Shown here piece after piece: positions 1-63,535 of a stretch of DNA of 64,000 nucleotides. A program made the translations under genes and the position numbers. The notes under the pieces were generated by a model. That model saw only the letters and a program-made list of their open reading frames with translations, was not told the DNA's origin and did no database searches. The stretch spans positions 16,314,930 through 16,378,929 of the forward strand of contig CM026427.1 in NCBI GenBank assembly GCA_014871385.1, read 5' to 3'. Every line of letters begins with the position of its first letter. Within the stretch, counting starts at the first letter, position 1. The stretch is from Ceratodon purpureus. Its lineage: Eukaryota > Streptophyta > Bryopsida > Pseudoditrichales > Ditrichaceae.

Positions 1-1507
1 CTTAATTTGTCATTATGGAAATATGGAAATTCATCAATAATCAAAATTAATAAATAAAATAATACTTGGTAATTCAAGATCATATGCATTGGCAGGTTGT
101 TCAAATCCTATTTTAGCAAATATTTTATGATTGGTGTACATCGAACTTAAAGCACATATTCTAACCTTGAATCAATAAAGTTACTAAAACACCAATGCTA
201 TTTTTTTTACTTATATATTTATGTACATAAAACAATGTTACACAAACTTCTTCTTTCTCATGCCCCAAATGTAAAGGTGAATTTTATTTGAATCATATTA
301 CATGAACATTTTCAAATCTTACATTTATATTCATGATTTATTGAATTTTCACAATTCATACATTAGATCACGTTGGATTAAAAAGTCATATATTAATTAA
401 AACTTTGAAAATTTATGAAACAAAATTTCATTTTATTTTAAATTTAAATAAAAACTTTTAAAAAATGAAAAAATTGACATCTATTTCAACAACTATACTA
501 CAAAAGTTATATATTTTTTTAAAACAGCTATTAATTTTTATAATGCCTAAAATTAAATAGAATAATTTTATTTTTTTCCCTTACTGTAATCTTTTGAATT
601 TTTTATTATTTAAAAATATTGACTTACTTCAAATTTTATGTTATTAAAAATGTAACAAATCAATATAGTTTACCATTATATTTAGAAATCAAAACCTTCA
701 TTTAATCCTAAATATCATATTATACTGAAACAAAATGTTTTAAACAAAAATAATGTTGATCATGTTTTACTATCTTTAATGAAATATATATACTTATATA
801 ATAATTATTAGCTCTTCAAACATGCTTACAAAGTTTTCCAATATATACTGCATATTTCTTCACCTTTTCTGATGCAATGTTCTGAAACCAAACATCACAA
901 CAACTAGGATATATTGCCAAAATTTGTTGTTACTTCAAGTCCATGAACAATTTTCCGATGGTATCATACAAATGATGCCGTTGCATATGTCCCATCTGTG
1001 GATGTTCTCATTGCAAATATATTACCAAACACATGACAAGCTATTGCATGATGGTGCAACACTAACAACCGACATCAGAAGGTGCACAAAACATTGTTCA
1101 ATCATCTTGTCTATTGATGAAAAATAACTTATTGCAATACGCTTTATAAAAATGGCAAGTATGTCTACCTTAAGTAGATATTTTGTATGTAGATAAAGCA
1201 ATTGGAAATTTCCACAACAATAAATGTTAAAGTTGTTAAAGCACCACTTGAAGCCATTAGTGTATATTGATTGCAAACTACAATTTGATTAATGGTTTAC
1301 ATTTTTTGAAGTTATTGATGCACATACAATCAATTTAAAATCCAATATTTATAAATTTAATTCAATAATAAAAAGAAACAGTTAAGATAAAACTAAATAA
1401 GTTGCTCAAACATAGGAGTAATGGTATTAAAACAAATTGACCATTGTACAGCAAATTTGATGCTTTGATAATTGTACTAATTATAATCACATGAAACTAA
1501 ATAAAAC
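1..1507. other. AT-rich intergenic DNA, no gene seen
   Basis: Very AT-rich, with many A and T runs and frequent stops in all frames. The few short open frames show no recognisable domain, codon bias or splice structure. I see no gene here. Confidence 0.6.
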
Positions 1508-1985
1508 AATAATGTAAGATGGTACAATAAAAGTATTGTTATAATTCATATACTATAATTTTATAAATTTTTAGACTCTAATTAAAAATTTGAAATCTTG
1601 TCATTTATTTTTTTAGTTTTAAAATAAAATAAAATTAATTTAATTTTTTTAATGAGTTGATAGAAAATTTTAAAAATTTCAAATAACAATTTAAAGTTAA
1701 AATTTTTAATAATATTTGAAGGATTTTTTTAAGAATTAATTTTTTTTTAGAAACTTGATTTAATTATCAAACTTTAATATTTAATGTATTTAAAATAACT
1801 ATCATTTTGTAGGATGCTCAAATTGAACACAAGTAAAAGAAATTGTATCATTATCCAAATACATAGAAAATTTGAATTTTCAACTATTCAAAAATATATA
1901 TTTACATTCATATTTTCTACATGATAAAGGATAAATGGGTCCTCTAAGTAAATTATCCAAAATATAAACGCCACAAAATTGTTAA
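1508..1985. repeat. Degenerate direct repeat, copy 1
   Basis: This stretch matches 2765-3240 in the same orientation and order. Both begin with AATAATGTAAGAT, pass through a TTTTTAxACTCTAATTAAAAAT block and a TTTAAAATAAAATAAAAT block, and end with GGATAAATGGGTCCTC followed by ATCCAAAATAT and ACGCCA. By eye the copies are roughly three-quarters identical, with small indels. They are separated by about 0.78 kb, so they could be old long terminal repeats of a short element, or a tandem duplication. No coding capacity is visible between them. Confidence 0.65.
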
Positions 1986-2764
1986 TATTGAGATTTTGAA
2001 TCCATAAATAAGTGCAAAAGAGTATTCTGGTATAGGTGTTTTGGTAATTTGCAAAGAAGTAACATTATAGCCATGAGGTGCAAACTTACTCTTTTCAACA
2101 CAAATGATTAAATTTACTTATAATGCATTGTCTAGTCACTTATATGTGTTAAATGTACATAATTAAATACAATATAAAAAATGATTGTACATTGTTCAAA
2201 TGATGTCGGGCAATGAAGGTTGTGGGCGCTCCTTGCAACATCTTTCTTAGTCCTTGCCTTCTATATTACAACTATAAACCAGAGGCAGTGCAATAATTCA
2301 CAATTGATGCATAGGGTCTTCTACCTTGGCTCCAAATTTTAAGTAATCAACTACAATGCAAAATATAATACAGAAAAAAACCACACTAGATGCAATATAG
2401 CTCAAAACCTCATCCATACAACAATAAAGAAGGCCATATTGAAATCTTATAGTAGCGCCCTACGTAATCATAGAGATCCTCGCACATTTTAATTCTACAT
2501 TATAAGGACCATAGTACGTTTTCCAGTATCTGAATTAAAAAGGCGATGATGAGGACTACGTATCGTTGTTGATCGATGACAAACAAAATACTATACTAAT
2601 TTGGAGACCGTATTCTTGTACCAAGATTACACAAAAATTTGTGCCTTGATTATCATGTTACATATCTGGACAAATAAATATTATGCGCTAAGAACTTGAA
2701 CTCCAACCTCAAATGCTCACAAATGTTTAAGCTCCAAATGAAACATCACAAAATAATAAAATAA
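1986..2764. other. AT-rich DNA between the two direct repeats
   Basis: Lies between the two degenerate direct repeats. No open frame with recognisable content was found, and no primer-binding site or polypurine tract could be identified with confidence. Confidence 0.5.
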
Positions 2765-3240
2765 TAATGTAAGATAGTATGTGAAAAAAAATTACAATCC
2801 ATACACTACATTTGTATAAATTTTTATACTCTAATTAAAAATCTGAAAAGTTGTTAAATATATAATATTATCTATTTCTTTAACTTTAAAATAAAATAAA
2901 ATGATAGTTTAATTTTTTACCAAATTGTTAGAAATTTTATGAAAATCAAATTTACAATTTAAAATTAAATTTTAAAAATTAAATTTGGAGAATTTATTAG
3001 AAAATTAAAAAAATTAGAGCCCTAATTTAATTATAAAATTTTAGTATTTGATATATTCAAAACAACTATCATCTTGTAGGATGCCCAAATTGAATACAAA
3101 ATAAAATAAAATTGTATCATTATTCAATCACATAGAAAATTTAATCTTCAACTATTCAAAAATGTTGATTTACATTTAAGTTGTCTACAGGATAAATGGG
3201 TCCTCCAAGTAAAACATCCAAAATATGGACGCCATGAGAT
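2765..3240. repeat. Degenerate direct repeat, copy 2
   Basis: Second copy of the repeat at 1508-1985. The 3' part is clearest: CTTGTAGGATGC, CAAATTGAA, CACATAGAAAATTT, CAACTATTCAAAAAT and GATAAATGGGTCCTCC recur in the same order with similar spacing. Neither copy is coding. Confidence 0.65.
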
Positions 3241-3697
3241 GTAGGGGTTAAACATAGCATGCAGTATCAAAAGGAAAAAAGAGGGAAAAAAAACAAAGTG
3301 TACAGATTATCAAGGAGGTGTTACAACAGCAACAGAAAACCCGGACACTAAAATCTGAAAGAAACTGATGGGTGATAATTCATGTCATTAGAAGACCAGC
3401 AAAAAGAATGTTACATTGGGCTGTTGCACACATTCATTGCGAGTGCACAATATCAGCAATGGTATGTCTAACATGTGGGCAACTCTAGCGTTGCATGTGA
3501 TGGTGACACACTCCGTATGAATGTAATAATTGGGTGACTGCGGTAGTCGGGAAAAATTGAAGAGCGCGGAACATTATGCCCAGTCTAGCCTAGTCTAGTC
3601 TAGTAAGGGTGGTACTCAACACCGACTTTATCATACAGCATTCATTGTAGATGATAAAACTGGTACAGCAGCATCTCCAAGCTCACGAGACAGCTTC
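3241..3697. other. Downstream flank of the GT14 gene
   Basis: Non-coding stretch beyond the stop codon of the minus-strand glycosyltransferase, so it probably includes that gene's 3' UTR. It contains a short run of TCTAG/CCTAG units near 3583-3604. No other gene is seen. Confidence 0.45.
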
Positions 3698-5812
3698 TTA
3701 CAAAAAGATACATTGCTCCGAACGGAACTTCGGTTTTGCCAACAGACGCTCAATCAAGCCTTGCAACCTCTGGGCTCCTGGACCTGGTCTCAGAACGGTG
3801 GAGTCCCCTCTCGTTGCACACGAATCCTCGCTAGCTGCACCACCTGTACAGGTTTTCAGATTAGTACAGATCTTGAAGGCAGGGTGGGAAAAAGAAATAT
3901 CAGATGCGTTACAAATATGAAAAAAATAGGCAAAGGATCAAAACTAAAATCGACGAGTGATAAGAAAGACAGCAACTGTTAACTCATAGTGACAAGGGTG
4001 TGTGGAGTTTAGAGCAGGGAGTTTGATTCGTACCTATACACCAACCTCCTGGGGTGAACTTTCCTGGAGTTCGTCCTAACAGTTGCTTGTCGATGAAATT
4101 CAGTACGGGGTCCTCTTTATCAAACTTTCGAGCGAAGGGAGCTCCACTTCCGGTCATGTTCTGGAAATCCTTCAGGGTAAGGGACAGTGGATGTTGCTTG
4201 GGAGGATTATCCCAGGCTATGTAGTGTAGGTCATGGTTTACAGTGGTGTTCTTGAATTCCGGGCTGTTGCAGATTACAGTGTGGAAGTAACCCTCTGGTG
4301 AAGATACAAAATTGGTGTAGTACATGAGGAGTACTCGTGGTAGGTTGTCCCAGCCCATAATTGTGTACTCCATAAACGACCTTGAAAGAACTGCCCATGC
4401 AGATCCTGCAATCGTGAGGGGGAAACGTTAGTGCCACACAAACAGGTTCGAAAAAACTGCTGGTACCAAGGAAAGCTCAGAGTGTGCAAGAGTATGCAAG
4501 TTTAAATCAAGACGAACTAAATCAAAAGCAATATTACATGGAGTAAATGTACACACTTGGTCAGTGTACGTTAAATCAAGGATTCGCAACCTAACCTGTA
4601 AATAATCGATAAGCTGTCGGGACTGCTCGCTTTTGAGTTGCCCAGAAAATGTCAGTCTTCCTGTTCATGTACAACCCTGGGTCGATAATGATAGGTTTGG
4701 CCCTTTGAAACCTGCATACGACAGGAAACAGACATCCTGTTTATACAAAGGACTTTCGAAATATCCCAATCCCCCAAGTACCGGTACCACAACCCAAAGA
4801 ACTGACACCAATGTCCCCACACCATCAACTCGTCGTAATTTCAAAAAGAAATAGTGTGTACTTACTCTTTCCATCCAATGTCGCTGGTGTGCTCAATGAA
4901 ATTGAGGTCCCGAGGCAAAAATGAAAATACGTGTAAAATGTCTGAAATTCCAATTCAATACATTACCACTAGTCAAAATTTGTAAGCTGTAAACTGAGAT
5001 TCTAAATGAACCAAGATCCTTTAAGAGGAATTATGTCTAACAATAAGTGGAATCTAATAACATAATGCAAATTAGTCAAAATAAGCCCTACTTCATGACG
5101 ATGAAAGCGTTACTGCTCAATTTTCCAGGAACCGCGAAATATAAAACTGCAGCTACAAATCTACCACGAATTCGACTATCTGACGAGACAGTTGAATCAG
5201 AAAAACCTGTAGAGGGTGACTTAGTGAAGAGTTTACGGGACAAACGGATTACTTACCATCTTGGGTAGCCAAAGGATAATCTGAAGCGCTCAAATTGATG
5301 AACCAGTCCCAATCCTTGAAGTTCTTCAGCAATATCGCAGCGCCGTGTAAAGTTGTGGCAACCATTGTTGGGCCCCGGTACGTCACTATATTTGCTTTTC
5401 CGATCAGAATTACATTCCCAACCTCTTGAAAGACAGGATCATTTCGCAAATATCTAGCTAACTCAACTCTTTCCTTGGGAGGAGCCTCAAGATCCAAGTG
5501 CAATACGTAGTAATTTCGCGGATGATAAAGAGCTTGTAAGGTCCGCCGAATTCGAATCCCGTCCCCCTTGTGCCCAGAGATTAGATAAGCAAGTCGAGGA
5601 GGCGCAGGCAGACTCACTACAGGCTCCTGGACTACATGATCTTCCACGAACATAGATTTCTCCTCTTTCTGTAGAAACTTAAAATACGTGCCCGTCGACG
5701 GTTTAAGACTGATTGCGAAAATTAGAAACAATACAAGGGATACAGATAAACTAGCAAGCAGGGGTATCCGCCACCTTCTCTCCATGGTTGAAAAACCATA
5801 GGAAGGAAGCAT
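3698..5812 (-). CDS. GT14 beta-glucuronosyltransferase (GlcAT14-like, type II Golgi membrane protein)
   Basis: Member of the plant GT14 / core-2-I-branching family (formerly DUF266). Known plant members add glucuronic acid to arabinogalactan-protein glycans in the Golgi; that function is inferred from family. Hand-built exons on the minus strand, in gene order: 5812-5257, 4941-4866, 4711-4596, 4405-4034, 3843-3698. All junctions are GT-AG and in phase, giving about 421 aa, a usual length. A short cytosolic tail is followed by a signal anchor at about residues 17-36 (PLLASLSVSLVLFLIFAISL). The catalytic domain starts near residue 72 with RLAYLISGHKGD. Family hallmarks are FINLSASDYPLATQDD, FLPRDLNFIEHTSDIGWKE, IIIDPGLYM, GSAWAVLSRSF, VNHDLHYIAWD and C-terminal TVLRPGPGAQRL. 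The ATG at 5812 is chosen because the frame upstream has only TTG; a second Met lies 9 residues in. The intron before the last exon has a TACTAAT branch-like site just upstream of its AG. Confidence 0.9.
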
Positions 5813-6980
5813 TGTGCTAACCCTCAAGAGACCTCAAGAGAATCACCAACTGCCCAATTTCACTCCAAAATCTGTACAGCACTAACTTGTGGTCCACAGA
5901 TCACCAGTACTCTACAAATACACCGCATAATTTGGAAAGCTCGCGTATACAGACATGCTGATGATGCAACTTAATGATAGAATCCTCTGAACGTAGACCC
6001 AAAGCGGTAACAACAGTCACCAAGCCCCGATTCCCGCTGAAGAGATGAACTCAAATCTGTTGGAGATCCCTGAATTACCCCAAAAACAACACGCCTTTTA
6101 TCAGCACAAAGACATCCACAGACAATCTCGTACTCAACAAAAGTGAAAACCAGATCACTGCATGACTGCTCTCAGATGCACAAAACAACCATCACACACC
6201 CACATTGAAGAGCACAGATCGACTAAAAGGAACTAGAACCACCTCCTCCTCCCCTGCTGTAACATGAACCCGGCTCCTCACCACTCAAACCGAACCAACC
6301 CCCGAGCATACACACACCTGACTATGACACACCACACAAAACCCTCCTCAAGCAATGCACGCCGGTCCTCGAACACCACGACATATCTCTCTCTACTCGC
6401 ACACAATGCAGCCAAAAGAGGGACGATCCAAACACACACACAAACAGGGACATCCTCAACCCGGGATCCGGCCACATCTAACAGACCCTAAGCACAGACT
6501 ACCAGATTAACAGCGAGTTCCACCAACCTTTTTATCAATTCCGCCACTCAAGCAACCCAGGGGTACGAACACACTCAAAAAGGACGACGAAAAGCCTGCA
6601 AAAGGCAACCTTGTAGATAGGATCCAGAGGAGCGAGACGGACTCTCCCGCAGTACGAAGATTGCTTGCATTATTCCTACAGCCCCTCGTTCCAGACACGA
6701 AGCTTGCACCAGACACCACACAACACTCACGGCGCTCACATGAAGGATCGATGCATTGCCATAACCCAAAAACGCAAAACGCATTGGCACGCGGAGTAGC
6801 CAAACACAGCTAAACCTAAACCCCGGCAAGCTCGCTTAGAACACAGCTTAAGGCCGTAACCCACATCGCAAATTCGACCTAACGAAACCCCCGAAGGGTG
6901 AACACTAAAAATTATGACCGAACCTTCACCAACTCACATGGTGACGATCTCTAGCTGCATCCGAGAAACACATCCATGCA
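5813..6980. other. Upstream region of the GT14 gene
   Basis: C/A-rich on the plus strand (CACACACCAC-type tracts), consistent with the 5' UTR and promoter of the minus-strand glycosyltransferase. Several open frames exist in both directions, but they are low-complexity and show no domain, so I do not call them. Confidence 0.4.
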
Positions 6981-9748: not shown

Positions 9749-11566
9749 TTAGTTCTCATTGTGCCAGCATATGTGCAAGGTCAATTTGACTTAGTACCAT
9801 GCAAAATGAATGCATGTTCCTTGAGCATTAATTCCGGTCTAATTACTAGTTAATTAAATTATGATTATCATGTAAAGCAAAGAGAGTAATGAGTTGATGA
9901 ACTCAGCTCAAGCAAACCTCCGCATCATCATAATATCATCTCCATTACTCCATAATTCATATATGGTCCTAACATACTCATAGTCCAATTATGATATGTA
10001 TTCTTTACTACTCAACATTAATGAATCCTAGTTCTTTAATAGTTATGGACTTACTGTTCTCTAGTCCTAAGTACTAAAATGACTCTTGAGTAATTCTTTT
10101 TCATATTCTATGATTTCCCGTAAAGTCCTCTAAGGGTCAGGATACAATATAATTTCACTCTAGTCTTAACATATTATTCAAAAATATCTATGAGTCACGC
10201 TATTTAATCTCTCAAATAATTAGCTACTTTAGCCAAGTGGACTTCGATAACTATTTTAAACTCAATCTTGTTTTCAATGGTTGTAATTTTAAACTCATAT
10301 TTTACCAAAATGAGTTAACTTATAATCCACTATCACTCCCCAAATGATACTTCTTAAATTCTCTTATGTCAATTTGACTCCTTTCTATTCTAACTCTTTA
10401 CAGAGATTTTTCCTATCTTTCTAATAGTGAATAGTGTGGTCAATATGACATCATTCTTCCACTCTGTTAATTAGACTAGTCTCTTTCATTACTTGACACT
10501 ATGCACTTAGTGTATAGTTACAATTCTAGAAAATGTAGTCAATTAGACAATGCATGTAATTCAGAATCACTCTGGTAATGGTATTTATGTAATGCAATGA
10601 CAATTGCAAAATAGAATGCAGATATGTACTAAACCCAAGGACATAAGGTGAATTAACAATGCAAAATCAATTAAATACAATTCACAACAATCAAACTAGT
10701 GTATACAATAACGACTCCATTTGACAACAACTCTATACAGCCATTCATAGCCAATCAACAGTTCATAGTGCTCCAGTCAATTAGACTTACAAAATGGCTC
10801 AATCAAAATTGACAATGAGCAACTAGGAAAACAAATTCACTTGAAGACGATTTCCAACTGTATACACTAGGACTAACACTCGAGTAATTTAACTAGAAAT
10901 AACATAGAGTAGTGTTTTTTTATCTTGGTCTTTAGTTTTCTTATACTCTTGTAATGAAACTACAAATTCTACAAGTTACCCTTGACGCTTCAAATTTTAA
11001 CCCTTAATATCTCCTTATAAGCATCCCTTAGTCTAAAATGTTCACATTATCCTTCTATTTCCAATTACTTTAAGTGTTTGAATGAACTCAAATAATTTAG
11101 GAATAAAAAAAAAAAAAAAAAACAAAAAATAATTTGTTCTATTTTTGTTTTTTAGTTTTCATAACCTTCTAGTTTTTAAGTTTTTTATTTTTGGTTCAAT
11201 CAGGACGTACCCCGCTATGGTGCTATATTAAGTGGAGTGTGGTCCAAAGTTTTTATGCAAATTCAAAAAGAAGGGTTATGGTTGATAGTGAAGTAATTAA
11301 GATTAAATAAAATATCACATTTCCAAAAAATTATAAAAATTACACAAATTGGCATGGTCCAAATTTATTTTCTTACAATAGCTATCCTGATCCCATTCAA
11401 ATGGGATTGTTCACAATTATTTAGCTAATGAACATGGTCTCTCTTATGGCGATAGGTTGGTTTCACATTATTTAAATCAAGATGCAACGTGCAAGTAATT
11501 CACAAATATTATTACATCAATACTAAGAATTCATCTTGAAGAGGGTCCTTTTAAGAGTAGCATGTA
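9749..11566. other. AT-rich intergenic DNA, no gene seen
   Basis: No recognisable gene. Holds scattered copies of the GTCAATTAGAC / GTCAATTTGAC motif near 9779, 10371, 10533 and 10775, and an A run near 11107. Confidence 0.5.
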
Positions 11567-13282
11567 CAGTACCCGGAAGAAAAGATACGTGAATTTTACT
11601 TATCTCCAAGTTGACTAAAGTATGGACAGTGAACTTCAAGTGAGCACTACACTTTCACTTTGTGAGCAATTGCCTTGGGGTTTTCACCTATTTTTAGAAC
11701 TAGGAGTAAGGTTGTGAAAAGTAAATGATTTGTGTCTAATTATAGAAAAAATATATGTAAAGTAATAGTTCTCCATTGCCCTATCTAAAGTGTGTCCACG
11801 CCTTTTTCATGCATTAACTATTATTAGGCCTCATTATGGTATAATAATGTTTTGGGCCGCAGTTTAAAAAATATGTATGTATGTGATATTGAATTGTGAT
11901 TGCATTGTAAGTGTGGGGTTAACTTTTGAGATGATTGTGGGTGTTAGCGTGACTTTGTTTAGTATGTGGTATATTATTCTTATTGAAATAAGTTTGTTTG
12001 GTATTGTGGGTAGGTTGAGTGGTATAATCTTTTGAGAAAGATGAAGACTAGAGCGTTGACAGATGCTGAGAAAGGACAAGTGGTTGGAATGCACAAAGCT
12101 GGAAGCAAAGGTGTGGAGATAGCAAGAGAATTAGGTATGCCTTCTTCCACCGTTTATGGTGTTATAAACAGTTTCAAAAAACGAGGAAGTGTGAAGTCAC
12201 CAAAGCCAACGGGTAGGCCTCGAAAGTTTACAGAGCGGGATATGAGACAGTTAGAACGTCTCCTTAATGAAGATCGTCGTAAACCACTCACAGAAATTAC
12301 AAATGAGATGGCACGTGTTGCAAAGGTTGATAACTCGTACTTTAAGGAATGCTTTGCAGACCCTTGGTTATAGAAGATGTGTTGCAGTAAAAAAACCTTT
12401 TCTCAGTAAAAAGTACATGGCAGACAGGTTAGCATTTGCTAAAGAGCATAAAAACTCGACAAAGAAGGATTGGAAGAAGGTTATTTGGACTGATGAATCA
12501 TCTTTCGAAATAGGAAGGAGTTCTAGACAAATTAGAGTGTGGCGAAAGGCTTATGAAAGATATTCAGATAAATGTCTAGTACCAACTTTTAAGTCTGCGC
12601 GTACGTCGGTGATGGTTTGGGGTGCTTTTAGTGGCTTTGAGAAGGCTCCTTTGGTAATCATACCTTCAGATAAGCGAAGTGCAGGTGATTTTGTGGAACT
12701 TATTTACGATGGCGCTTTAACTCCATTTTATTTTATCCATAAACCTCACAAAGACATGTTACTTATGGAGGATGGCGCTCCAGTCCATCGCAGCAATTTG
12801 CCAAACAAGTGGAGACAAAAAATCGGTACAACGAAGTTGAAGTGGCCTGCCAACTCTCCAGATCTAAATCCAATTGAGAACCTATGGAAAATTATTAAAG
12901 ATGAAGTTCAAAGTAAATCCCGGCCAAGCAATGCACAAGAATTGGTGGAACAACTTCAAAGAGTATGGGAAGAGATACCTTTTGACCTCTTAGAAAACCT
13001 TATTGATACCATGCCTACACGTATGAAGGAAGTAATTAGTGCAAAAGGTGGTAGTAGTAGATTTTGAGTACTATATAGGAGAAAGTAAATTTTGTGTTGA
13101 TTTTGTTTATTTTTCTATATAAACAAATATTATTATTGAAATAAAGTCTACAGGCTTTCAAATGCAATTTCTTGCATTGAATTCCATGAATTTTCAACCT
13201 CGCATGAGCTCACCAAATTCTATGTTCAGTACATTTTTCTAGCACATAACACAGAATCACGTATCTTTTCTTCCGGGTACTG
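11567..13282 (+). mobile_element. Tc1-type (DD34E) DNA transposon, 1716 bp
   Basis: Bounded by 26-bp terminal inverted repeats that are identical base for base: left 11567-11592, right 13257-13282, both beginning CAGTACCCGG and ending ATACGTGA. A TA duplication flanks each side (11565-11566 and 13283-13284). CAGT termini and a TA target site are hallmarks of Tc1/mariner elements. The interior holds one transposase frame, broken once. Identical ends suggest recent insertion. An AT-rich left arm of about 470 bp precedes the transposase. Confidence 0.93.
12041..13067 (+). pseudogene. Tc1-like transposase, single frameshift
   Basis: Encodes a cut-and-paste transposase of about 340 residues if the break is ignored. 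The N-terminal half (ATG at 12041; the frame upstream has only TTG) has a helix-turn-helix (AGSKGVEIARELGMPSSTVY) and the GRPRK motif typical of Tc1 DNA-binding regions. The C-terminal half has the DDE catalytic core: D in IWTDES, D in LLMEDGAPVH and E in SPDLNPIENLW. Exactly 34 residues lie between the second D and the E, so it is DD34E (Tc1 type), not the DD39D usual for plant mariner-like elements. The frame shifts by one near 12327-12335, consistent with one extra base there. The first frame then stops at 12373, and the second frame is open to the stop at 13067. It is therefore probably inactive as it stands. Confidence 0.92.
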
Positions 13283-15604
13283 TACAATCGCGGTCCCAGC
13301 TGTGACCTATTTTGCAGCACTACCTCTGCAACAGAACTCTTGAATACACAGGCGATATCACTGGTCACCTTGACCATAGGTACTACTCTTTCTTATGACA
13401 ATCACTCAAGACTATGACACAGTTGTATGCTAGCTATTTGATAAAACCAAGTGGAGCAACATTGCAAATGAGCCAGTCCTTCAGGTGCTGGAACCTCAAG
13501 TCATGATATATTGGAACTGGATTGTACCACTGGTAACTTGGCTATTGAGTTTCAAACTCCAGTACAGCAGCCACATGGTGTGATCATGGAATTAGCCAAT
13601 GCAGTACATTCTTGCAATAAAGTAGAGTCTTATGTGTTTTTGTTTCGTGTGTAGCTGTAATGTGTTTTGTATCAAAGTAAACCCAAAACGAAGGTTATTA
13701 CACATGTAATTCTGAATGGATTGATCATTTCTGAAATTGAGTTCAGAAGCCTTCTCTTTGCCTATATATTTGCATTAGGATTTAGGGTTTTAGGGACTGG
13801 GAAACCTTTTAGTCTAAGCTGCTAAAGTTGTGAACTTGTCGCCCAAAGTCCAGCTAAAGAAACAACAATTACACTGTATACAAAAGGAGGCCAAATTCAA
13901 GAATGTGATTAGTGGAATTATAAAAGCAGCCTCTCGTGCTTTACAATGAAGAAGAACAAATGATGGAAAGGAAAAATCTGAGTATGAATTATGTCCTCCG
14001 AGGACAGTGTGATTGGAGGAAGGCTACAAGATAAATTAGAATCTAGATAGCATATGCAAAGCAGTAAGGTACAAAAAGCTTTGATTTTTTTACAACTGAC
14101 ATGAATGAATTAACCCCACAGTGGCTTTCTTTCTTATGCATTGGTAAAACTGTCACTTGGGGAACCAATACAGCGGCCCACGTGACAACACAAAATGAAG
14201 AATTTTTTCTTCAATGGTACCAATTATATCCCCAACCCTGCTTTGCTTTCTGTTCACCAGTGAACAGAGTCGTTTTGAACAAGAAGGAATAATTTTTTTG
14301 ACTCCCTCCCTGGAAAAGAATTGTGCTTCCCAGGCATCAACTGATGAGAGGAAGAAACCTTGGGAATGAACTCAGGGTAGACCCCTCAATCCATAGTATT
14401 CATTGCTCCCTCTACCAAACTCCAATAATTGTTGTTTGTCACACTTCCTTGAAATCATATTGCTGCTGCTCCTATCCTTGCTCTCCACTTCAGCATCTGT
14501 AATGATCTTAGATCTTGTCTCTGCCTGTTCCCACATTCTCATATCCTATTACCCATCTCAAGTAGATTACCAACTTCTCAATGGACTTATTGTATAATCT
14601 CAACTCTAGATCATTCAAAGGAGTTGTCACTTGTTGACCTTCTGCCCAATTTCTGAGACATATGATGGCATGTGATTTCAACTGCGTCCTTTTGGTTAAA
14701 TTGATGTTTGGTTGCAGGGATTTTCCTGAAACTGCATGTGAATCTGAGAGAAAAATTAGGGTTTATGGAGTCATTGTTGTTCGGAGTATGTCATTGCAGT
14801 TTTGTTTGGGCATGGTCACACTCTGACGATCTGTTGCTATTGCTAATGCTGAAACTTTTTCTTTCAGAAAGAGCTTGAGGTGATGATTCATCACACTTGG
14901 AGTTTCAGCACGATGGAGATTGTTCTGCCACTGAATATTGTTGACCATATTAACTTATACCCTAATAACGTGCACCGGTTTCTTCGTCGTTGTGCATACT
15001 AAGTTTGCCTATTTCAAGTAATCTTTCTTCAATTTGACGGCCGGCATTGTGATGCTGTAGGTTTGCTACTCACCCATGCTAGAAAAGGTTGAAAATGTGA
15101 ACCTTAAGTTACTCAAGGGATGCATTTTGTATGTGGGAACTCTGGTGACACAACACTACTGTACAGAATCGAGTGAAAGAAGTAATGCAATTAGAGAACG
15201 GCGGTATCAACAACAGCGAATCTTTAATTTTCTCAACTATATAAATTTAGTGATGACGTTATACCATCCGATTTTTCAACGTATTACTGTAAGTTTCCGA
15301 ATCTTCTTACTATTACAGTAATGACACGGCTAGATAATACTGCACCGTGAAGTACTTCACCGAAAGCACATTACTAGCAAATGCACCTAGTGAGCTCGTG
15401 TTTCCAAGTTAGTTGCAGATGTGTTTGAGTCCCTTTCTGTGTGGTTTTTTACTAACGACATCAGTTGATGAAGATTTTGGCGGCAGAAAAGTGGATAATG
15501 CTCACTTGAATGCCGGGGACGAAGGAGGGATCATGGTGTGATAGTGGTGTAGATATTAGAAAACGCCGCCCACTTCGAAGCATTAAAGGTGATGAGCTGA
15601 TCAA
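13283..15604. other. Intergenic DNA with a telo-box-like motif
   Basis: No recognisable gene. TTTAGGGTTTTAGGG at 13781-13795 resembles the telo-box found in promoters of plant housekeeping genes, but no coding exon was found nearby. Short open frames at 14101-14597 and 14763-14948 show no domain. Confidence 0.4.
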
Positions 15605-46200: not shown

Positions 46201-49200
46201 AAATCAAACACTGTGAGTTAACTTTCTTCAGCTCGTCTGGTGTAATTTATAGAGTCTTGAATGCAGAGCATGCTCTTTGCAGAAAAAGAGCTGTCAGTTT
46301 GAGGTTGATTTTGATCTTTCTTTGAAATGGCAGACTCTTCCACACCGGCAATCTCGATAGCCTTGTACTCGTTTATCACAGCAGGCATACTCGGCACTGC
46401 ATTTTTTTCTGGTGCTCTAGCTATCTCGTCTGCAAATCTTGCTGCTGCCGGCGCAATCTTTGGTCGACCAGGTAGTTGCATCGGCGCAGATGCATCGAAA
46501 AACCTCCTGGTGAGCTTCCCGAAACTTCGAAGTGCTTCTCAATCATCTTGATAATTTCGATTTGTATGATTTCGCTTATTTGACATGATACTGATTCATT
46601 CTATCGCAATTTTGTGCTGTAGGGAATGGCAGGTCACATGCAAGTACTTGCTCTGACAAGTTTTCTTGCAGTGAGCCTGCCAATTGAGTACTACGAAACT
46701 GCAAACGGCTTGCAGTGGCTAATCCCGCATGTGAGCACTCCATGGCAGAAGAATGAAGATGTAAATTACACAACCACCTTTGCTGCGAATGTGCAGACGA
46801 ATCTCACTCTCAGCGTTCGCCGAAGCATGATGACATCCGCATCTCATGTGCCATCGGGCGTTGGCGAACTCCGACTTCAAGCTCTCTTTTCGGCGTGCAG
46901 GATGATGCGCCAATGGCCCACTCAATACGTAAGTCTCCTTGAAATCCTTTCTACTTCTTTACAGCAGACCCACATTTTAGTTTACAATTAACGATTGGCC
47001 AAACGTGATTGTGAGTCTAAGCCAAATTTTGTTCGAAAGAATTGACATTACGAGCATGGTTGCAGGATAATATGAACTGCTCTCTCTACAGTGAAAGCTT
47101 AGCAACGACATACTGGTCTGGCACATACATGGAAAATTTTCTTCCTCGGAATCAAGTATCATATCTGTCTCGAACGCAAGATCGAAGGCGTTTAGGTGCA
47201 AATGGAACAGAATTTGGACCAGCCATGACAGCAGAAGAATACACGACATATTTTCTTGTAAGCAACGAATTGTAGATGTTGTCTGTGTGTAGCATCCGCT
47301 TATAAACATCTGCTGAGGCTCAGATCAAGCCATGAACATCTGACAAGTGCAGGCTGCTTTATGGAATCAGGACACTGAGTATTCATAACTAACTGGCTCT
47401 TTCTAATCACAGAATCAGGGTGCGAGTCTTAGTAGACTGCAGAAGGACTTGCTTGAAAGGAAATACACCGGGTGGAGCGATTTCTGGCGCAACATATTCT
47501 GGATTCTAGTAGTGTGCGGCAGTTTAATTCTTCTGCACATTCTTCTACTTTTATTCCTGCGCTGGAGAACCAAGACGCCACTCCACGGAGCCTTAAGTAT
47601 CCCCCGATTCGAGCTCTTTCTCCTCATTCTGGTCCTGCCAGCCATTTGCCAAGCGTCTGCCTTCGTTATAAGAGGTATGATCGATCTTATCCATCACATG
47701 TGCTAGATCAATTAAGTTCTGCATTCGTTGTCTTTAGCTCACCTTCAATCATTCCGCTTTGCCAAGGTGTACGATTTTAGAATGCAGTAACAGATTTGTC
47801 TTCGTCATACAGGAGGTACGAAAGCAGGAATCGCTGTGGGAGTACTCCTTTTGATAATACCAGTGGTGCTTCTGCTCATGACCGTCTTGTTGCTCGTCTT
47901 CGGGATCTTTCTTGGCAAACGCGTCCAGTACAAGGAGCTTCGTCCACATCCGCAAGAAGACGGAAAGCCTCGTCCTCCGCCAACTAGAATGCCACTATCT
48001 CTCATCACCGGCGCAGGCTACCCTGGAAGGTGGGCGAGGAAAGAATCAACAAGCTTAGCATTCATTCCAAGGTACGGCATCCTATTTGAGGATCGCAAGG
48101 GCCCGCCAAGACTTGTCACGATGATTAACGACTCAAGCTCATCACAAAAGAGCTCGACTCGCAGCGGATTTCGACGCAACACAATGTTGAACTCTGACGA
48201 CGAGCACGACGAGCGGGCCGTGTCACGGGCTTACACATTGTCCGGCTGCTTCCAATCCGCATACATTTTGGTGGACATCTCGCGCCGCATTGCCTTGGGA
48301 CTCATCTTCGGTGCATTTCGAGTGACCGACGAGTCATGGACGCAAGTATCACTCGCGATCGCTGTCACCGCGGTTCAGTTGCTGTACCTAGTCATTGCCA
48401 AGCCGTTCCAACGCCGCTTCGTGCAGTTCGTGGAGACGGTCTCCCTTCTGTGCGAGATCGGCATCTTCGTTGCCGCCATGGTCATCCTTGCGCAGAACCG
48501 CCCCTATGACGGCCACTTCGGAATCGGCGTCGTGATGCTTGCGCTGCTCGTGCTGAGCTTTGTGGCGCAGATCGCGAACGAATGGTTTGCCCTTATTCGT
48601 CAGCTCCTCGCGCTTTCGAACACCGAAGAAATCTCTCCCAAGGAAGGCCTCAAGGCATTCGCCATCGGGCTCTTCCTGCCACTCCTCCCGCGAAGCCGAT
48701 GGCCGCAATTCAATACGGCAACGGTTAGAACCGCCCCGCCAACTCTGAAACCGCCGCCGCCTCCGAGGAACCTTGACGTCGACCAAAGGGCAAGCACTTC
48801 CGGAGGGCAATACTACAGCAGCCCGCTCACCTCCCCGCGCCCTGATAACGGTACCGCCACGCAGAGTCCAAGGTCGCCGGTTTTCGGCAGCGTCACTAAA
48901 TCTCAAAAGCCGGTAGTCTCAACCACTGAGTACTGGCCCGGGGAAGACCTGCAGGAATGGGCGCGCCAAAACTCCATGGAGAGAAGGCGACAAGAAACCG
49001 AGCTCGTCGTCAATCCCATGGTTCAGGAAATTGCATCTGCGGATCCCATCTTTACGAAGTATCTCCAGGAAGCACCAACTTCCACCGCAGTGAGCAAATC
49101 TCGCCAACGACGTTCTCGAATTCACAGTGACTCGGGCTCTACTATCGTTCTCTCCGACGGTGAATCTGAAGAGAGCTCACATTCGCGGCAGCACTCCATC

Positions 49201-49224
49201 GAAATTGGACCTGCACTGCCATAA
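43206..49224 (+). CDS. Large membrane protein: Ig-like ectodomain repeats plus TRP-like (Flc/Pkd2-type) multi-pass domain
   Basis: Thirteen exons by my reading: 43206-43484, 44329-44473, 44593-44726, 44847-45051, 45165-45403, 45590-45704, 45810-45954, 46067-46212, 46334-46509, 46623-46928, 47066-47257, 47413-47674, 47813-49224. All are GT-AG and in phase; total about 1251 aa. A signal peptide (KLVLLWILLDLVHVVRG) lies near residues 34-50; a second Met at 43257 is an alternative start. Residues 50-470 hold Ig-like beta repeats with openings such as DTKPPTATLSTN and DVDRPQVLLSS and closings such as RICADAAGN and TVDIAGNLN, with many N-glycosylation sites. From about 475 come several membrane helices, including GHMQVLALTSFLAVSLPIEY, which resembles the Q-rich signature of fungal TRP-like/Flc proteins. 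A long luminal loop, more helices and a Ser/Pro-rich cytosolic tail follow. Ion or FAD transport is suggested for fungal relatives; here function is unknown. Confidence 0.8.
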
Positions 49225-61745: not shown

Positions 61746-61917
61746 ACATGACAAAATTGAGAGACAAAAGAGTGGGCATTCACGACAAAATTGAGAGACA
61801 AAAGAGTGGGCATTCACGACAAAATTGAGAGACAAAAGAGTGGGCATTCACGACAAAATTGAGAGACAAAAGAGTGGGCATTCACGACAAAATTGAGAGA
61901 CAAAAGAGTGGGCATTC
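61746..61917. repeat. 34-bp minisatellite, five copies
   Basis: Five nearly identical tandem copies of a 34-bp unit containing GACAAAATTGAGAGACAAAA followed by GAGTGGGCATTCAC. The first copy has ATGACA where the others have ACGACA. Perfect internal identity implies recent expansion. Confidence 0.95.
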
Positions 61918-63535
61918 AAAGCTTCTTACAAATTGAGAAAAGAGGCCTTGTGATACTTTGGTTACTAAAGATGGACTTGAACTACATCTCCAACAACAAA
62001 ATATCTTTGATTTGAAACTAACAATTTGTTGTCTAACATTAATCTGAGGCATATTTTGACATATGTTGAATTGGGTGCATAAGTGCTGCAAAATAAACCA
62101 TTTCTGAGTTGCAAACATGTTCTTGTATGCTTGACGTTTTTTCAAGGAATGAAAATTGGACCATTTATAATTGGAAACATGTGATTTTTAGTGACAAGAT
62201 AAAGAAAATTTAATTTAATTCAGATGGATAGGAGATGGGAAATGCATTGGACCTCAACATATGCATTGGATCATGAAACATTGAGACAAATCCATCATCA
62301 TTTGGAGATTGATAGCCACTTTTGGACATGGTGCATGGTAAAGAAGTGAAGGTAGGATGGATATGCATTTGTAAAAATTAATTTTAGAAAACTTCTGGTG
62401 GTCATGTATATAGAATTACAATGAGGATTAAATAGGTTGGAATTTCAACAAGACAATAATTAAAGCACACAAACGAGAGTGTGCAAGAATAGTTGATATA
62501 AAAACCATTTCGACTCCTTCAATGGCCTCTTCAATCTCTAATTTGAATCTCTTTGAATACTTTTCAAACAATGCTTGAACAAATTTTTGTCTTTTTTTAA
62601 GAAGTATAAAAAAATTGTGGTAAATTATGCAATGTATTCCCAATTTTATTAAACATGTGGTTAATCTTCAATGTTCTTCTTGGTTCAACTAGTCGTATAG
62701 AAGTGAGAGTAGAAATATTGAAGTATGGAAAAATTCTTTCATGTCACCTACTACTTGGTTTGAAACATGTTAAATGTGAATGTCAAGTTGGCATGATTTT
62801 AGAGTATTTATTACATAAATTCAGCATAATTCAATGCTATTATAATTCATGTGGTTTTTTTGTTCTTAATGAAGTCATAGCCTTCTGAATGTTTTTATTG
62901 TACATCAAGTCCAAAACTTGTAATTTATTTTGCATTCAATTCAAGAGGATTGATTATAATTATTAAAAGAATCTTTGCATATGCTAACAAATTTAGATTC
63001 TTACAATAAGTAACATTTGACATAAAGTACCAATCTTTTTTATCTAGACAAGTTCAAATATTTCCACCTAAAATTCTATATTACCACAAAATCAACAACT
63101 TTTTAATATTTGTCAATCAAAGTCAACTTTCTATAAACATCATTTGAAGTATATTTTTAACTAACTTATAATTGGTGTAATTTATCCAAATTTTTGGACA
63201 TTTTACCTTGGAAGCCTTTTCTCTTTCATCTCAAATCCAAATTAATTCCAATTCATAGTCTTGGCATAACTAAAGATACTACTAAGATTAGAAAAACAAT
63301 TTAGTACAAATGAGTCTAGTTTTGGACTCTTTCACTTTTTACAATTTGGACCATTTTTTTGACATTGCATAACCATTTACGAATAAAATGTTTTTTTATT
63401 ATAATTTAGTGTAGACCCTTATAATTAATACAAAATGATTTTTTAGTTGGTAATATATTGGAATTTTTCATGATTTTTGGGGTATAAATTTATACTTTTG
63501 GATGAACCTGTATTACATGTATTAGTATTTAAGTT
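61918..63535. other. AT-rich intergenic DNA, no gene seen
   Basis: Very AT-rich. No supported coding exon. Confidence 0.5.

Follow-up and report, generated by a model that had tools for sequence, protein, structure and literature searches.

Is the DD34E transposase gene that lies in this moss sequence a foreign oddity, an assembly artefact or an ordinary resident of the genome? The window, by which we mean the whole 64,000-nucleotide stretch of Ceratodon purpureus DNA analysed here (G000:C7:16314930-16378929, from an assembly of 362.5 Mb in 151 contigs), carries at 11567-13282 a Tc1-type element that a sequence-only reading had singled out as an anomaly for plants. We conclude that the element is almost certainly an inactive member of a Tc1-like (DD34E) DNA transposon family that has many copies in the moss genome. 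It is genuine but dead, an ordinary representative of a known moss transposon kind, with a target preference that is mildly interesting.

The element in the window

The element is 1716 bp long, and the limits given for it in the sequence-only reading are exact to the base, with CAGT at 11567 and ACTG running up to 13282. That reading also described CAGT termini with TA on both sides, and we found 26-bp inverted ends, identical at both sides (tip CAGTACCC...), with TA at 11565-11566 and 13283-13284. The features, in window coordinates, are as follows.

11565..11566, no strand: left TA target duplication, inside ATGTA
11567..11592, plus strand: left terminal inverted repeat, 26 bp, starting with CAGT
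12041..12373, plus strand: transposase piece 1, 110 aa, helix-turn-helix (HTH) region, ended by a premature stop after a frameshift
12212..12226, plus strand: GRPRK motif in transposase piece 1
12267..13067, plus strand: transposase piece 2, 266 aa, in another frame, with part of HTH_Tnp_Tc3_2 and the DDE_3 catalytic domain
12492..12494, plus strand: codon of the first catalytic Asp (WTDES)
12771..12773, plus strand: codon of the second catalytic Asp (EDGAPVH)
12876..12878, plus strand: codon of the catalytic Glu (NPIEN), with 34 residues between the second Asp and this Glu
13257..13282, minus strand: right terminal inverted repeat, 26 bp, ending with ACTG
13283..13284, no strand: right TA target duplication, inside TACAA

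The GRPRK motif, likewise claimed earlier, is present at residues 58-62 of the 110-aa piece (P0001, own count), and the spacing from the second Asp to the Glu is exactly 34 residues, as had been stated. Both Pfam domains of the window transposase scored above the curated cut-off (DDE_3, E 1e-14; HTH_Tnp_Tc3_2, E 3.8e-10). The transposase region is frameshifted, with the HTH piece and the catalytic-domain piece in different frames, and because of this frameshift the window copy lacks the uninterrupted transposase frame of an autonomous element. Neither the frameshift nor the multicopy status described below figured in the earlier account.

Elsewhere in the window, Pfam matches were obtained for 5 of the 10 other open reading frames (ORFs) scanned (two Core-2/I-branching enzymes, BTB, F-box, and dephospho-CoA kinase), while the ORF at 47836-49224 had no Pfam match. 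No RNA family in the window reached its gathering threshold. At 61750-61918, we observed a 34-bp tandem repeat in five perfect copies.

Copies, frames, and related families in the genome

We searched the genome for the 26-bp end, allowing up to three mismatches, and obtained 93 forward and 85 reverse matches (178), whereas a reversed-pattern control gave 0; the matches are therefore not due to chance, and the family (family A), whose copies the earlier reading had proposed to count, is multicopy. The 100 end places listed are all exact and are spread over at least 10 of the 13 large contigs (C1, C2, C3, C4, C6, C7, C10, C11, C12, and C13); a relative with a variant tip is found on C9 (L065). 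By our own sum, contigs C1-C13 total about 356 Mb, with C6 at 110.5 Mb and the other twelve at 16.5-29.0 Mb. Places matching DDE_3, all families taken together, number at least 143 (150 of 238 candidates scored); this family search also matched in 3 of 14 control genomes, all prokaryotes. One DDE_3-match locus (L062, G000:C3:23312500-23316000) contains two perfect inverted repeats of 471 bp, set about 2.6 kb apart end to end.

We fetched 40 loci around the listed ends and then 20 more. In the first 40 together with the window, 37 of 41 loci have both ends exact, and 36 of these 37 paired copies, the window copy included, have TA on both sides, the exception being L044, which is without the right TA. 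The 31 near-full-length copies that we aligned differ by a mean pairwise K2P distance of 3.7% (median 3.1%, maximum 8.0%), and the nearest of them to the window copy, L010, lies on a different chromosome (1.0% K2P). Two copies, L019 and L020, show zero substitutions between them and common flanks and look like one duplicated insertion.

The triad, the ends, the flanking TA, and the dispersed copies together support the earlier identification of a DD34E Tc1 element in a plant genome, and they bear on two other accounts of the locus. That the element is a contaminant or marks a chimeric assembly junction is now very hard to credit. Copies with distinct flanks lie on many chromosome-size contigs; C6, with 30.5% of the genome, carries 32 of the 100 listed exact ends (hand count); and the window also has Core-2/I-branching enzyme, BTB, F-box, and CoaE pieces. 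The sequence-only reading had judged contamination less likely, and the dispersed copies on chromosome-size contigs now refute it; the single chimeric junction that the reading had named as fatal to its proposal is ruled out by copy number and dispersal, and we reject both. That the gene has been domesticated by the host, and is not part of a mobile element, is more improbable still and is likewise rejected, in view of the broken frame here, the exact ends, and the many closely similar copies. We thus retain a multicopy transposon family of the moss genome, with the window copy as one of its inactive members.

A 341-aa frame is intact in 5 of the 31 near-full-length copies (L015, L024, L026, L033, and L020). 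The two-part HTH and DDE_3 domain was found in the window, in two pieces, and in the intact frame of L020. In all five intact frames, normally conserved positions close to the triad are altered, at least one of them in L020 and several in the other four (L015, L024, L026, and L033), which form a family A subgroup. Judging from these sequences, we are unsure of the competence of the aligned family A copies.

Lesions are shared as well. The one-base frameshift of the window copy is common to 7 of the 31 copies (window included) on six contigs, and an internal stretch at element positions ~819-1190, which contains the codon of the first catalytic Asp, is absent from 9 of 32 loci examined. The loci of this dispersed, internally deleted derivative are L012, L035, L041, L043, L072, L074, L075, L083, and L088; its length is 1339-1349 bp in L012, L035, and L041, and L043 and L072 are apparently duplicates of one another. 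Where defective copies are dispersed with a lesion in common, the likeliest explanation is movement in trans by the enzyme of intact copies. Because its frameshift is common to several dispersed copies, the window copy was probably mobilised in the same manner. In the mechanism that we envisage, an intact sister copy would encode a transposase whose two helix-turn-helix units bind the 26-bp ends, the DDE triad of this transposase would cut the element out, and the excised element would be joined at a TA, mostly within TGTACA, so that the TA is duplicated; the frame-less window copy would probably have been moved by enzyme supplied from intact copies.

The genome holds further families. Family B encodes 337 aa within ~2.42 kb and has 31-bp ends (CAGTCAGG...), which gave 62 + 66 matches at up to two mismatches and 0 in the control. 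Three families are each described from one locus: C (L057), D (L058, 339 aa), and F (L064). Family E measures 1597 bp in two loci and has 8 ends at up to three mismatches. Over aligned parts, identity to family A is 51-55% for B, C, D, and F, and 24-27% for E and a further sequence, L061; over the catalytic part, A and E are 27% identical. A family B derivative of near-constant length, just under 1 kb and with ends carrying CAATTACG, was seen as at least 12 pairs on 5 contigs (hand count); it is likely to be a recently mobilised non-autonomous element.

When a profile built from five of this genome's related transposases was compared with solved structures, it matched Sleeping Beauty at E 4.8e-39, Tc3 at 6.3e-7, and Mos1 at 0.011. 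By this measure the moss proteins are closer to the Tc1 type than to mariner, and a 12-row tree agrees, although it is small, contains no fungal sequence, places Mos1 on a very long branch, and uses a Tc1 row entered by hand. Families A, B, C, D, and F cluster there (98/100) to the exclusion of Sleeping Beauty, Tc1, and the pair of E and L061 (90/75).

Target sites and head-to-tail stacking

The sites of the 37 paired copies are TGTACA in 28, AGTACA in 7, TGTACT in 1, and GGTACA in 1 (L044 is counted under AGTACA though without the right TA, and a few of the 37, such as L019/L020, are non-independent). As background, the remainder of the window has 4003 NNTANN sites, 27 of which are TGTACA. 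The 95 distinct 30-base flanks of family A end in GTA in 88 cases, in TGTA in 77, and in TACTGTA in 22, and 3 of the 95 are without a terminal TA. TACTGTA accounts for 22 of the 77 TGTA flanks, versus 13 among the 671 TGTA sites that the window holds. In family B, TGTA was found at 30 of 40 flanks, one wrongly placed stretch being counted as a miss, and TACTGTA in 1 of 29 TGTA flanks; the longer motif is thus special to family A. In family E, 1 of 8 flanks has TGTA.

Because the ends are CAGT, insertion into TGTACA restores TGTACA at both junctions. At one locus (L069, G000:C4:11269000-11277000, positions 1025-5924), three family A units stand head to tail with a single shared TA between them. 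Both inner junctions of this array read ACTG-TA-CAGT, the later units are spaced at 1593, and the flank preceding the array is TGTACAGTACTGTA. The last repeat may have been made by unequal exchange.

We considered that the outer TG and CA could be part of longer element ends, in which case there would be no target preference to explain. TG before TA (or CA after it) occurs at 65 of 74 half-sites, as longer ends would have it, and no empty site was seen: when the joined flanks of 38 copies were searched against the fetched loci, none was convincing, and the junction-spanning matches were weak or came from neighbouring or duplicated copies. However, GTA is preceded by different bases (T 83, A 11, and G 1 of the 95 flanks), although this is not an even comparison, since only flanks next to exact 26-bp ends entered it. 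Family B, whose end sequence differs, shows the same outer bias, and family E does not. Longer ends are thus improbable, and we read the flanking TA as a target duplication, not as part of a longer element, because of the known shape of the superfamily and the varying outer bases.

Returning to a true target preference, we propose, tentatively and at somewhat less than even confidence, that a moss Tc1 clade (at least A and B, whose ends differ) uses a near-fixed palindromic target, TGTACA, extended in family A to TACTGTACAGTA, which amounts to two of its own ends around TA. Insertions would then recreate targets at both edges, so that elements could pile up in head-to-tail order like the units of the C4 array, and the classical Tc1-type family E would be without the preference. 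If confirmed by empty sites, the preference would offer a simple reason for self-stacking and would count, to our knowledge, as strict among Tc1 elements. Among the open-licence papers that our searches listed, we found no TGTACA target for Tc1/mariner elements, the one paper that came up being, by its listing, a fish transcriptome, and no earlier description of this genome's specific families or of their TGTACA preference.

Origin and comparison with known systems

Sleeping Beauty, a fish Tc1-like element, shares with family A the DD34E triad, the two-part HTH, and a homologous catalytic domain (E 2.8e-31), but it falls outside the moss A-B-C-D-F group in the tree. Its preferred target is AT-rich, unlike TGTACA. 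Plant mariner-like elements belong to the same superfamily as Tc1 and also duplicate TA, but their triad is DD39D, whereas here the third residue is Glu, at a spacing of 34.

As for history, the family could have entered the moss lineage horizontally from fungi, as a basidiomycete-like Tc1, and then have been amplified, and we consider the chances of this to be about even. Such an entry is compatible with a resident multicopy family and concerns only how it arrived. Transfer from fungi has been proposed for the Physcomitrella patens elements (Castanera 2016, PMC4905642; Vendrell-Mir 2020, PMC7466625), and the trees in these two papers place the P. patens elements among fungal ones. The former describes the Tc1-mariner transposases Mariner2_PPa (P. 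patens) and TIR_1 (Pleurotus ostreatus), which we liken to ours by description, and puts a moss sequence into the basidiomycete clade. That the A-B-C-D-F group stands apart from Tc1, Sleeping Beauty, and family E also fits a fungal source. However, families as divergent from A as these, within one genome, fit a long residence in mosses or repeated entry as well. A search with a few short peptide patterns in viral (IMG/VR) and prokaryote (GTDB) contigs, collections unlikely to hold eukaryotic relatives, gave no confirmed relative.

The closest known systems are PpTc1 and PpTc2 of P. patens (Liu and Yang 2014, PMC4054914), which are described there as DD34E elements with CAGT...ACTG ends, a TA duplication, and multiple copies, all features in common with family A. 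They have 33-bp ends, lengths of 1584 and 1709 bp, and one 338-aa frame, whereas family A has 26-bp perfect ends, a length of ~1715 bp, and 341 aa. They also represent two lineages that are 26% identical, and by analogy our families A and E look like a mirror of this two-lineage picture. The same source reports DD34E Tc1-like elements, mostly fragments, in nine angiosperms. The view of such an element as an anomaly for plants is accordingly outdated, and the observation that the sequence-only reading had said would count against it, close DD34E relatives already common across land plants, is largely on record for one moss and these angiosperms.

The element kind and the idea of transfer are thus already in print (2014, 2016, and 2020). 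To these we add further related families, amplified broken and internally deleted derivatives, the TGTACA preference, and one head-to-tail array. Beside P. patens there now stands a moss genome with several Tc1 families, some with closely similar copies, and such a genome is useful for counting the entries of Tc1 elements into mosses.
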